A DNA stretch of 22,933 bases from a virus. The notes below the pieces were generated by a model. The model was not told the origin of the DNA, ran no database searches, and was given only the letters and a program-made list of their open reading frames with translations. The stretch is taken from positions 1-22,933 of the IMG/VR virus record IMGVR_UViG_3300042876_001093. One strand, 5' to 3'. How positions within the stretch are numbered: position 1 is the stretch's first letter; each line of letters starts with the position of its first letter. Positions 19,706-22,933 of the stretch are shown one piece after another. The position numbers and the translations under genes are program-made.

Positions 19706-19734
19706 TTTACAAAAGGTGGTTTTCCTGCTACCCT
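19706..19734 (+). promoter_or_regulatory. Promoter of the first DGR target gene
   Basis: TTTACA, a 17-base spacer, TACCCT. The same layout (spacer length and distance to the leader hairpin) is repeated at 20634-20662 before the second target gene, which supports both calls. Confidence 0.6.
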
Positions 19735-19747
19735 AGGGGCATTGAGT

Positions 19748-19766
19748 GGCCCTGTAATTTTCAGGC
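19748..19766 (+). promoter_or_regulatory. Conserved leader hairpin of the first target gene
   Basis: CCTG-(TAATTTT)-CAGG with flanking GG/C. It begins 14 bases after the -10 box, near the expected mRNA 5' end. The nearly identical element GGACCCTGTGATTTTCAGGG occurs at the same distance before the second target gene (20676-20695). Its conservation in otherwise diverged leaders suggests a protein-binding or RNA-level control site. Confidence 0.5.
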
Positions 19767-19819
19767 ATTAACCTCTGGTTGATGATGTCCACTAGCAACT
19801 TTCTATAAGGAGCTACCTG

Positions 19820-20506
19820 ATGTTAGATCAGCGTACTTCTGAAACTACCCAACTCACCTCAGATGGTGTGGCGAGGCAGCTTGGCCGACAGGTCGAAGAT
19901 GCCACCCGCAACTATCGGGGTGGGACTGAAAAGGCGGAGTTGGCAAAAGGCCATCCCGACTTCAACGAGCAGCTCTATGGTCTCTACGACAAGCTGGCGG
20001 CCGAGCAGGCCTTGCGTCTGCCAGTTCTCCAGCGTCCGGCGTGGAAGACAATCAAGCTCGGCACTGGTCTGAAGACCAGCAAGGACTTCATCAATGCTAT
20101 CGAGAAGGCGGGTGGCAAGGTCAGCGACTGGGCGAGGAACATCCTCGGCAGGAAGGCCTTCACTGCTTCAGCCGAGCCAATGGAGCTTGACCTGGTCGTG
20201 GTGTCGGTGGCCGAACTGGGCTTTCCCGGTGGAGCCACGCTCAAGGACATTTACGCCAAGGCCAAGACCTTCGGTCTCGAGCTCTGCCCGTGCGAGGTCG
20301 GTCCGCAACTGCGACCGCAGTATATGGACCAGCCCAACGGTGAGTGGCTCTTAGTAGCGATGGAACCCATTACGGCTTCCGACGGCGGCCCGGACGTGTT
20401 CAGCGTTGCGCACGGCGGCTTCGGCCGTTGGCTCAGCACCAACTCTGGCTACCCCGGCTATGTCTGGAGTGGCAGCCGCCGCTGGGTGTTCGTCCGCCGC
20501 AAGTAG
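19820..20506 (+). CDS. DGR target (variable) protein 1
   Basis: 228 residues, start supported by GGAG seven bases upstream. It is a paralogue of the gene at 20747 over nearly its whole length (shared ELAKGHPDF, LRLP, QRPAWKT, VAELGF, ELCPxEVGP). The last 45 residues are encoded by the variable repeat and end GRWL...VW.G..RRWVFVRRK, matching the C-type-lectin-like fold of DGR variable proteins by position and tryptophan/arginine pattern. That fold is inferred. No signal peptide or membrane segment, so it is probably cytoplasmic or exported unconventionally. Markedly more GC-rich than the genes at 3600-19150. It has its own promoter, leader hairpin and terminator. Confidence 0.88.
   Translation: MLDQRTSETTQLTSDGVARQLGRQVEDATRNYRGGTEKAELAKGHPDFNEQLYGLYDKLAAEQALRLPVLQRPAWKTIKLGTGLKTSKDFINAIEKAGGKVSDWARNILGRKAFTASAEPMELDLVVVSVAELGFPGGATLKDIYAKAKTFGLELCPCEVGPQLRPQYMDQPNGEWLLVAMEPITASDGGPDVFSVAHGGFGRWLSTNSGYPGYVWSGSRRWVFVRRK
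20366..20500 (+). repeat. DGR variable repeat 1 (VR1)
   Basis: Aligned without gaps to the template repeat at 21731-21865. It differs at 23 positions, all of them adenine in the template (A to G, C or T), and is identical at every template G, C and T. It ends before AAGTAG, where the template has TACTAG. The last 22 bases have no template adenine and are invariant. Confidence 0.95.
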
Positions 20507-20561
20507 CTTCAGCTTTGGACCTGGGAACCTTGGAGCCATTAGGCTCTGTGGCCTTGGTCCT

Positions 20562-20585
20562 GCCACACGGTAACGTGTGGCTTTT
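20562..20585 (+). terminator. 3' hairpin with GTAA tetraloop, terminator 1
   Basis: GCCACACG-GTAA-CGTGTGGC followed by TTTT. The copy at 21474-21499 has one compensatory pair change (A-T to G-C). It works as an intrinsic terminator. The 8-pair stem with a 4-base GNRA-type loop also resembles the DNA hairpin downstream of the VR that aids homing in the Bordetella phage DGR. Here it is 62 bases past the VR, farther than in that system. A second small stem, GAGCC-ATTA-GGCTC, lies at 20533-20546. Confidence 0.75.
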
Positions 20586-20633
20586 GCTTGTCCATTGGCG
20601 GATTTTTAATCAGGAAGAGGTTGTATAAAAAGC

Positions 20634-20662
20634 TTGACTGGAAGCCAATTTTATGCTATCTT
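20634..20662 (+). promoter_or_regulatory. Promoter of the second DGR target gene
   Basis: TTGACT, 17-base spacer, TATCTT. The leader hairpin follows at the same distance as at the first gene. Confidence 0.65.
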
Positions 20663-20678
20663 GGAACTGTTAGATGGA

Positions 20679-20695
20679 CCCTGTGATTTTCAGGG
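20679..20695 (+). promoter_or_regulatory. Conserved leader hairpin of the second target gene
   Basis: CCCTG-(TGATTTT)-CAGGG, five pairs and a seven-base loop, homologous to the element at 19748. Confidence 0.5.
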
Positions 20696-21428: not shown

Positions 21429-21473
21429 TCAAACTTCGACCCTTCAGACCATTGGCACTCTGCCCTTGGTCCT

Positions 21474-21499
21474 GCCGCACGGTAACGTGCGGCTTTTTT
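21474..21499 (+). terminator. 3' hairpin with GTAA tetraloop, terminator 2
   Basis: GCCGCACG-GTAA-CGTGCGGC followed by TTTTTT. Perfect eight-pair stem, homologous to 20562-20585 with a compensatory base pair. Confidence 0.8.
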
Positions 21500-21730
21500 G
21501 TTAGAATAATCTTGGAACTAGGCGAATATGCCAGAGATTAAGGTTTCTGGCTGCCGAACCCAGTATCCATATGTCCAGAATATCTCCGACTAAGGTTTGA
21601 GATAGCGTGATATATGTAGAAACTTCAAAAAATGAAGCTACTTGGTGCGAGATATTCAGGCATTATCGATGCCAAATAAAATACAGCCCTCAGAGCAATT
21701 CAAGGGGTGGTGAAAAAAGATAATACCTCG
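21500..21730 (+). other. Untranslated leader of the template-repeat RNA
   Basis: No ORF with coding character. Small stems: GCCAGA/TCTGGC (21530-21551), CTTCA/TGAAG (21623-21637) and GGCAT/ATGCC (21659-21673). ATCTTGGAACT at 21509-21519 repeats 11 bases spanning the -10 region of the second target promoter (20658-20668), but I see no good -35 here. The RNA that carries TR probably starts in this stretch. Confidence 0.45.
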
Positions 21731-21865
21731 CACAATACGGATTCCGACGGCGACCCGAACGTGTTCAACGTTGAACACGACGACAACGACCGTTGGCTCA
21801 ACACCAACTATGACAACCCCGACAATGTCTGGAATGGCAACAACCGCTGGGTGTTCGTCCGCCGC
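21731..21865 (+). repeat. DGR template repeat (TR)
   Basis: Third copy of the target-gene 3' end, without the rest of the gene. Very adenine-rich at the variable positions: read in the VR frame it has 11 AAY codons and many GAC codons, and 24 of its 44 aligned codons contain A. All differences from VR1 and VR2 fall on these adenines. After 21865 the template reads TACTAG where both targets read AAGTAG, the expected difference between IMH* (template) and IMH (target). No upstream coding frame continues into it, so it is a template and not a gene. Confidence 0.95.
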
Positions 21866-21879
21866 TACTAGCTGCATTT

Positions 21880-21903
21880 CTCTCCCTACTTAGGGAGAGT
21901 TTT
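21880..21903 (+). terminator. Terminator-like hairpin after TR, overlapping the avd stop
   Basis: CTCTCCCTA pairs with TAGGGAGAG around CT, followed by TTTT-G-TT. It lies 14 bases after TR on the plus strand. The stop codon of the minus-strand avd gene (21888-21886) is inside the left arm. It may end the TR RNA or form part of its 3' structure. Confidence 0.6.
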
Positions 21904-22233
21904 GTTGAGTTGTCCATTCCAACCGCCCAGCATTTTTCCTATCTCATCTAGCTGAACTGAAACTGCTCCATACTTTTTGTTATCTAATGACTTGGTTTCC
22001 CAAAGAACCATCAGCAAGATTTTCAGAGTGTCGGTTTTACGAATAGCCACTCGGACATAAGGACATTTTTCGGCTTTGCTCAAAAAACTAGCTTGGGCGA
22101 CTGCTTCAATAATCTCTACGAAAAGGTTGTCTACCCTTTGCCCCAAGGAGTGACGATGGAGTTTGGGTAGGACTTGGTAATAGCTATACCATAGGAGGTA
22201 CGCCTGTTTTAGATGCTGAAGTAACGGGAGCAA
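21886..22233 (-). CDS. avd: Avd-like DGR accessory protein (four-helix bundle)
   Basis: 115 residues from the TTG at 22233. The sequence follows the Avd/four-helix-bundle family: LPLLQHLKQAYLLWY, HSLGQRVDNLFVEIIEAV, RKTDTLKILLMVLWETKSLD, and the hallmark end EIGKMLGGW. Avd pentamers bind the DGR reverse transcriptase and TR RNA and are needed for cDNA synthesis and homing. In this family the LP.. motif usually comes a few residues after the start, so TTG fits in length. However, an extraordinary (GA)n tract lies right before it, no in-frame ATG exists upstream, and the ATG at 22307 is out of frame (see findings). The gene is convergent to TR and divergent from the RT, unlike the co-oriented Bordetella arrangement. 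The start is uncertain; the family call is firm. Confidence 0.85.
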   Translation of the reverse strand: MLPLLQHLKQAYLLWYSYYQVLPKLHRHSLGQRVDNLFVEIIEAVAQASFLSKAEKCPYVRVAIRKTDTLKILLMVLWETKSLDNKKYGAVSVQLDEIGKMLGGWNGQLNKTLPK

Positions 22234-22272
22234 CTCTCTCTCTCTCTCTCTCTCTCTCTCTCTCTCTCTCTC
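22234..22272 (+). repeat. CT dinucleotide microsatellite (39 bases)
   Basis: An uninterrupted CT tract of 19.5 units, followed by GGGCGCGCC (an 8-base palindrome, GGCGCGCC, at 22274-22281). Very unusual in bacteria outside contingency loci. It lies at the 5' end of avd and between the divergent avd and RT genes. Either a slippage switch or an assembly or library artefact. Confidence 0.9.
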
Positions 22273-22313
22273 GGGCGCGCCGAGTTGGAATTAGGTTTAT
22301 CTAACATAAGTGA

Positions 22314-22933
22314 ATGATTACTAACTATTATGAACAGATTGTCTCCCTCGAGAATCTGCTTGAGGCATGGCGGGAGTTTGTGGTTGGGAAACGCGCTAGA
22401 GCCGATGTCCAGCTGTTCGAGCGGAACCTAACGGCTAATATTATCAGGCTTAATCGAGATTTGGAAGCTGGGGAATATCGGCATTCAGACTATCATCCAT
22501 TTAAGATTTCTGACCCAAAACCGAGAAATATTCATAAAGCAAGTGTCCGAGACAGATTGCTCCATAAGGCAATTTATCGCGTTTTGTATCCGATTTGGGA
22601 TAAAACGTTTATTTTTGATAGTTATTCCTGCCGAAATAATAAAGGAACCCACAAGGCATTTGCAAAACTTGAAAGCGTCTCCAGGAAAATTAGCCAGAAT
22701 TATGCTCGACACTGCTTTGCTCTGAAATGCGACATTAGGAGATTCTTTGACAGCATCGACCATGAGGTGCTGGTTACTTTGTTGCAGAAAAGAATCTCTG
22801 ATACAAAATTGCTAGATTTACTTAGTGAAATTATTGGCAGTTTTGAACTGTTGTCTGGCAAGGGGATGCCATTGGGTAATTTAACTTCTCAGCTATTTGC
22901 CAACATCTATTTAGATCCACTGGATAAGTTTGC
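22314..22933 (+). CDS. DGR reverse transcriptase, cut by the window end
   Basis: 206 full codons with no stop to the window edge. It starts at the ATG at 22314, directly after an in-frame TGA. The N-terminus (YEQIVSLENLLEAWREF, RNIHKASVRDRLLHKAI, FIFDSYSCRNNKGTHKA) matches DGR reverse transcriptases. Motif 3 is CDIRRFFDSIDH at 139-150. Motif 4 is MPLGNLTSQLFANIYL at 185-200, with the S-Q of the DGR group instead of the S-P of group II introns and retrons. The catalytic YxDD lies beyond the window. It would copy TR RNA with adenine-specific errors. No strong ribosome site precedes the ATG. The avd-side ATG at 22307 on the other strand lies only six bases away. Confidence 0.93.
   Translation, partial: MITNYYEQIVSLENLLEAWREFVVGKRARADVQLFERNLTANIIRLNRDLEAGEYRHSDYHPFKISDPKPRNIHKASVRDRLLHKAIYRVLYPIWDKTFIFDSYSCRNNKGTHKAFAKLESVSRKISQNYARHCFALKCDIRRFFDSIDHEVLVTLLQKRISDTKLLDLLSEIIGSFELLSGKGMPLGNLTSQLFANIYLDPLDKF

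Follow-up and report, generated by a model that had tools for sequence, protein, structure and literature searches.

The 22,933-base IMG/VR virus record IMGVR_UViG_3300042876_001093, which we analysed over its whole length and call the window, carries a diversity-generating retroelement (DGR) with one template repeat (TR) and two paralogous target genes, each holding a variable repeat (VR). The most unusual part of this element is a structured RNA directly 5' of the TR, together with its pairings to the TR and VR junctions, and an earlier note on the same DNA (the original prediction) overlooked it. We consider it probable that this is a Patescibacterial DGR making a non-coding template RNA of about 390 nt, in which a strand of the 5' leader primes cDNA synthesis; we infer the priming step from sequence comparison.

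A conserved RNA leader abuts the template repeat

The leader is about 220 nt long. It is near-identical between the window and the nearest related locus, that of a Kazan bacterium (L013), despite the unrelated TRs that follow it in the two. It folds far better than shuffled sequence (z -4.2 and -5.5). A MAFFT alignment of six leaders contains 54 base pairs, 29 of them with compensatory changes, a count that none of 500 shuffles equalled. With 96 distinct sequences compensatory changes reach 52 of the 54 pairs, and shuffling lowers the covariation score from 0.74 to 0.25. We ran the test on sets of 6, 21 and 96 distinct sequences, and in each set none of the 500 shuffles matched the main measures. 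The larger alignments were fitted to a covariance model, which favours the structure, while the six-sequence alignment is independent of that model. The leader is thus shown to be a conserved, covarying RNA.

Its distribution is narrow. Across 0.9 Mb of DGR loci the covariance model finds 24 places at E<0.004, almost all Patescibacterial, and it has no match in the DGR loci taken from other phyla (L042-L049). Of 380 Patescibacteria genomes 71 have a match; none was found in 99 Bacteroidota or in 5 genomes from other phyla with related reverse transcriptases (RTs). Among 4227 Rfam models none matches the leader, and elsewhere in the relatives' loci only rRNA and tRNA are found. Wherever a TR/VR pair was detected (76 of the 96 matches) the RNA abuts the TR. 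Two hairpins within the window's leader, at about 21530-21552 and 21580-21605, share a loop motif (AUUAAGGU and ACUAAGGU; UUACGG in relatives), which suggests a repeated RNA motif.

One strand of the leader is complementary to both junctions

A single strand of this leader, placed between two of its domains, has its complement both in the TR 3' flank and in the 3' junctions of the VRs (Table 1), and the complementarity covaries across loci. For the flank, leaders pair with the flank of their own locus at -12.3 kcal/mol and with those of other loci at -9.2, a difference that none of 20,000 permutations produced. The helix stops near the end of the TR-VR homology. No signal appears when the test is applied to the interior or the 5' end of the TR, or to the 5' end of the RNA itself. 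Stretches 60-130 nt downstream show a weak trend (z -2.0 and -1.4), which we take as an upper bound on what composition contributes to the flank pairing. Leader and flank change together, for example AAATGAATA with TATTCATTT in L026, TTATGAAAA with TTTTCATAA in L032, GCAAGACACT with AGTGTCTTGC in L131, and AAAAAGAAACT with AGTTTCTTTTT in L136.

The strand then runs on as ACUUG, with variants that include ACUCG, ACUCC and AAUCG, and this continuation complements the VR 3' junction exactly. The leader/junction classes found are UACUUG/CAAGTA, UACUCG/CGAGTA, CACUCC/GGAGTG, AGAGAAUC/GATTCTCT and UACCCG/CGGGTA. The longest exact complement averages 5.61 nt for matched loci and 4.22 nt for mismatched ones (z 13.3; 0 of 5,000), and control stretches inside and beyond the VR give nothing. 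Of 57 loci, 54 have a TR that differs within the junction-complementary stretch, and 48 of these show a change at a base other than A. In the window itself the duplexes with the leader strand come to -18.0 kcal/mol for VR1, -8.1 for VR2 and -8.4 for the TR flank.

The pattern extends to some Patescibacterial loci that the covariance model scores weakly or misses, where complements lie at about -98 to -142 from the TR (for example 12 nt in L024, 9 in L017, 8 in L037). When 330 nt upstream and 200 nt downstream were scanned without guidance, 34 complements of at least 7 nt turned up; 20 of them lie at -90 to -150, where about 2.5 are expected.

Table 1. Features of the DGR and its surroundings in the window
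Feature	Position	Strand	Remarks
Target gene 1	19820..20506	+	Open reading frame, 228 aa, VR at 3' end; 52% identical to target 2; relatives beside other leader RNA copies
VR1	20369..20500	+	22 differences from TR, all at template A
VR1 3' junction CAAGTAGCTTCA	20500..20511	+	Resembles initiation of mutagenic homing (IMH) site; perfect 12-nt complement of leader 21633-21644; unique in window
Hairpin after VR1	20562..20581	+	8-bp stem, GTAA loop; from sequence
Target gene 2	20747..21415	+	Open reading frame, 222 aa; paralogue of target 1
VR2	21278..21409	+	26 differences from TR, all at template A
VR2 3' junction CAAGTAG	21409..21415	+	Perfect 7-nt complement of leader 21638-21644
Hairpin after VR2	21474..21493	+	GTAA loop, one compensated pair relative to VR1 hairpin, then TTTTTT; from sequence
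Extended -10 promoter TGTTAGAAT, putative, of template RNA	21499..21507	+	TGNTANNNT near RNA 5' end in 60/96 loci
Structured 5' leader of TR transcript	21514..21733	+	5' end inferred; fold z -4.2; 52/54 pairs compensated
Leader strand AAATGAAGCTACTTG, putative RNA primer	21630..21644	+	Complementary to TR 3' flank and VR junctions
TR, non-coding	21734..21865	+	132 nt, 36 A
TR 3' flank TAGCTGCATTT	21869..21879	+	Pairs with leader 21630-21640, one mismatch
Terminator-like hairpin CTCTCCC-TACTTA-GGGAGAG-TTTTG	21880..21904	+	Putative 3' end of template RNA
avd	21886..22233	-	bAvd (Pfam) 8.5e-11; opposite strand to TR
(CT)19 microsatellite	22234..22271	.	Between divergent avd and RT; 10 repeats at same place in L013 (7942-7961)
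RT, open at contig end	22314..22933	+	RVT_1 2.4e-11; 80% identical to L013

The template RNA as a probable unit of its own

The box TGNTANNNT stands by the RNA 5' end at an identical offset in 53 of the 60 loci that have it, where the background is 1.8. A perfect hairpin stem follows the TR in 54 of 76 loci, with TTT next in 48. Because the -10 box keeps a fixed offset and the hairpin follows the TR, the template RNA is very likely a separate transcription unit, as judged from these signals.

This arrangement bears on the most conservative explanation, that the element is an ordinary DGR with its functional RNA 3' of the TR as in the phage BPP-1, the leader being merely a processed or regulatory 5' region. 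BPP-1 does require its 3' spacer (PMC12875486). A long structured spacer of that type between TR and next gene is absent here: the antisense avd coding region starts about 20 nt past the TR, with the terminator-like hairpin between. The leader, by contrast, covaries strongly and abuts the TR wherever one was detected, even in units without avd or RT nearby. We think this explanation very improbable.

Three such leader-TR-VR units without avd or RT nearby (L108, L075 and L106) come from the genomes of L014, L020 and L106, and the RT matches of each of these genomes lie together at a single different location. The units may be served in trans; incomplete genomes could mimic the same pattern.

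Proposed priming from the 5' side

The priming adenine of BPP-1 is reportedly spacer position 56 (A56; Naorem 2017). The stretch Sp48-56, AGGTGGTCA, which ends at A56, perfectly complements the IMH of the VR, TGACCACCT, over 9 nt; the corresponding IMH* of the TR reads TGCCCATCA and has no such match. In BPP-1 experiments cDNA is primed by an adenine within the 3' spacer (Sp); the template RNA serves as its own primer (PMC12875486). The main reason for reading the leader strand as a primer is that the BPP-1 primer bears the same relation to VR and TR.

The two systems also share adenine-directed change from TR to VR, Avd, an RT, and a hairpin with a GNAA-type loop after the VR. They differ in layout. 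BPP-1 has its structured RNA and primer 3' of the TR and its avd 5' of it on the same strand, whereas the window has the primer strand 5' of the TR and avd 3' and antisense. In topology the window's RNA resembles the msr-msd RNA of retrons: both have a 5' strand that base-pairs with the template's 3' flank, in a position to prime. Retrons, unlike DGRs, have no cDNA homing.

We propose the following sequence of events. The template RNA would run from promoter through structured 5' leader, TR and short 3' flank to terminator, and a complex of RT and Avd would bind the leader. The leader strand would fold onto the TR 3' flank and place G21644 opposite the last TR base, C21865, so that this G could prime cDNA into the TR with G21864 as the first templated base and with errors at template A. 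The cDNA, still joined to the leader strand, would then anneal to the VR. The primer strand is expected to sit perfectly on its target (12 nt in VR1, 7 in VR2) and imperfectly on the TR, and this would be why the VR is rewritten and the TR spared. This is the logic of BPP-1 with the primer shifted from the 3' to the 5' side of the template, a permuted and retron-like layout. Whether Patescibacteria in general have a circularly permuted, retron-like DGR RNA, in which the 5' leader recruits the RT and supplies a primer that doubles as the target address, is a question on which we stand evenly divided.

Two other roles for the strand deserve attention. It might mainly guide the choice of target by pairing with VR DNA, with priming that starts at a nicked VR, in the manner of group II introns. 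The perfect VR matches fit that idea, and target-primed synthesis was an early model for BPP-1 (PMC3240598). Against it stand the pairing of the same strand with the TR flank where TR-VR homology ends and the use of the template RNA as primer in BPP-1 (PMC12875486), and we find it distinctly unlikely. The VR junction might instead have been written by copying an RNA primer, which would make the complementarity a footprint of homing and not a means of recognition. The VR1 match, 12 nt long and reaching beyond the stop codon, is what such copying might leave. Most loci match over 5-7 nt and VR2 over 7, and copying would not predict so short a match. We regard the footprint as rather unlikely, and it is compatible with priming by the leader strand.

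Several observations weigh against priming from the leader. Of the 34 long complements in the unguided scan 10 lie downstream, close to the 7 that chance would give. Mismatches interrupt the TR-flank helix of the window itself (-8.4 kcal/mol), and the binding of RT and Avd to the leader is suggested by position alone. Coding could explain part of the VR match, since the CAAGTA at the end of the VR in part specifies Lys-stop; the covarying junction classes argue against coding constraint as its sole cause. A survey of the complement rule in 16 phage records, 15 of which yielded a TR/VR pair, gave scattered matches in the 15 phage DGRs beyond BPP-1, with means over all 16 of 6.1 nt downstream against 5.3 expected. 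The rule is therefore not established as general, and the non-Patescibacterial loci examined were likewise without clear signal.

Adenine-only change and the state of the element

The original prediction claimed that TR and VRs differ only at template adenines, and an exact realignment gives the same counts (Table 1) with no difference at any other base. All 96 non-A template positions are identical in both VRs and the alignment is free of gaps. Over a 130-nt core the probability that every difference would fall on an A by chance is 1e-15 for VR1 and 1e-19 for VR2. In 76 related TR/VR pairs A is changed at 1360 of 2356 positions and other bases at 29 of 6492. The homology breaks off abruptly past 21865 with the first non-A differences, and the IMH/IMH* difference is present at the 3' end (CGC/TACTAG in the TR, CGC/AAGTAG in the VR). 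The hairpins after the VRs have 8-bp stems and GTAA loops about 60 nt beyond the stop codons, and they are terminator-like too.

Recent activity had been argued from the differing VR patterns. The patterns do differ, but the argument is weak: 16 template A's are changed in both VRs and 11 of these carry the same new base (P=0.004 on equal choice among bases, weaker once a bias to G is allowed for), so part of the pattern reflects shared history or selection. A search for sister contigs with other VR or TR variants found none. One may therefore ask if the element is a relic, now untranscribed or inactive, since we have a single contig, a truncated RT and no sister contigs. The targets and avd are free of frameshifts, the RT is open to the contig end, neither VR has a non-A difference, and the promoter and RNA structure are retained. 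We give the relic hardly any credence.

Genes of the element

The TR/VR comparison, Avd and the RT fully support the claim of a DGR with two target genes, and the coordinates first given were correct apart from the start of target 1, which is 19820. An Avd-like gene and an RT with LGNLTSQ had been placed beside the TR, and both are there, with avd on the minus strand. The Avd product passes the Pfam bAvd cut-off (8.5e-11) and reaches 2.1e-17 and 63 bits against NCBIfam DivGenRetAVD, under its 80-bit cut-off. In relatives, downstream of the leader, each of the 77 avd genes found is on the minus strand and each of the 73 RTs on the plus strand. Motif 4 of the RT fits the DGR type (I/V/L)GxxxSQ. 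The contig ends upstream of YxDD; the Kazan RT is intact there and reads YADD. The element had been called complete-looking, and its completeness stays unsupported because the contig end cuts the RT.

Just 5' of motif 4 some relatives carry extra sequence at approximately the same place: an inverted repeat in L013 (about 8518-8565) and GA runs in L030 (8546-8583) and L036 (8537-8562). We considered the (CT)n-GGGCGCGCC stretch between avd and RT as an adapter or assembly artefact and rejected this, since the repeat occupies the same place in L013. Read on the avd strand, (GA)n stands immediately 5' of the TTG start and could serve as a ribosome-binding site of variable length.

The target family has a conserved ELCPAEVGPQLRLQY-x-DQP core, and its members adjoin many leader RNAs. 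The two targets match nothing in Pfam and no PDB sequence; a low-confidence structure model (pLDDT 58) gave a few C-type lectins among its Foldseek matches, all non-significant. No relatives of the targets were found among the viral contigs searched. An upstream motif, CCCTGTRATTTTCAGG and GGAGCTACCTGATG, is common to both genes (within 19740-19822 and 20670-20749).

Source record and host group

The complete IMG/VR record is the 22,933 bases analysed here, and its gene content includes terminase subunits, a serine integrase, a ParB-methyltransferase and a restriction-modification-like pair. The ParB N-terminal domain joined to a DNA methyltransferase lies at 13128-14498, beside the terminase genes. 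By its sequence relatives the DGR is Patescibacterial, from the ultra-small Patescibacteria. An RT scan of species genomes gave about 30 Patescibacteria loci at 48-80% identity, outranking nearly all loci of other phyla. The nearest relative is Kazan bacterium GW2011_GWA1_50_15 (CP011216.1), with the RT 80% and Avd 91% identical. It has the same layout, the same leader RNA and a (CT)n tract between avd and RT; it differs in having one target found, an unrelated TR, and a complete chromosome as its source in place of a contig filed as viral.

A further relative, L072 (IMGVR_UViG_3300031215_001417, 1-2797), is a contig of 2,797 bp with a direct repeat of 125 bp at its termini, and its sole content is one DGR: target, leader RNA, TR, antisense avd and a full RT with YADD. 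It is a DGR minicircle, a tandem array or a cycle in the assembly graph.

The passages of Roux et al. 2021 that were searched (PMC8144416) describe Patescibacteria as rich in DGRs. Their DGR clade 2 (Patescibacteria) resembles the window's element in host group and in targets without recognisable domains, and those passages make no mention of RNA structure or of Avd orientation.

Conclusions

A 2026 paper calls the entry of DGR cDNA into the VR incompletely understood (PMC12875486), and the priming of DGR cDNA is known for one phage system. A covarying primer strand in about 76 loci offers a route to locating the primer from sequence alone, and it predicts single-nucleotide tests. The compact RNA of promoter, leader, TR and terminator, possibly acting in trans, would be a handy design for tools of targeted diversification. 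If the proposal is true, leader-TR-target units without an RT would be served in trans. A primer strand that is perfect against the IMH of the VR and imperfect against the IMH* of the TR would then unite this Patescibacterial clade with BPP-1, and the same relation would explain why it is the VR, rather than the TR, that is rewritten.

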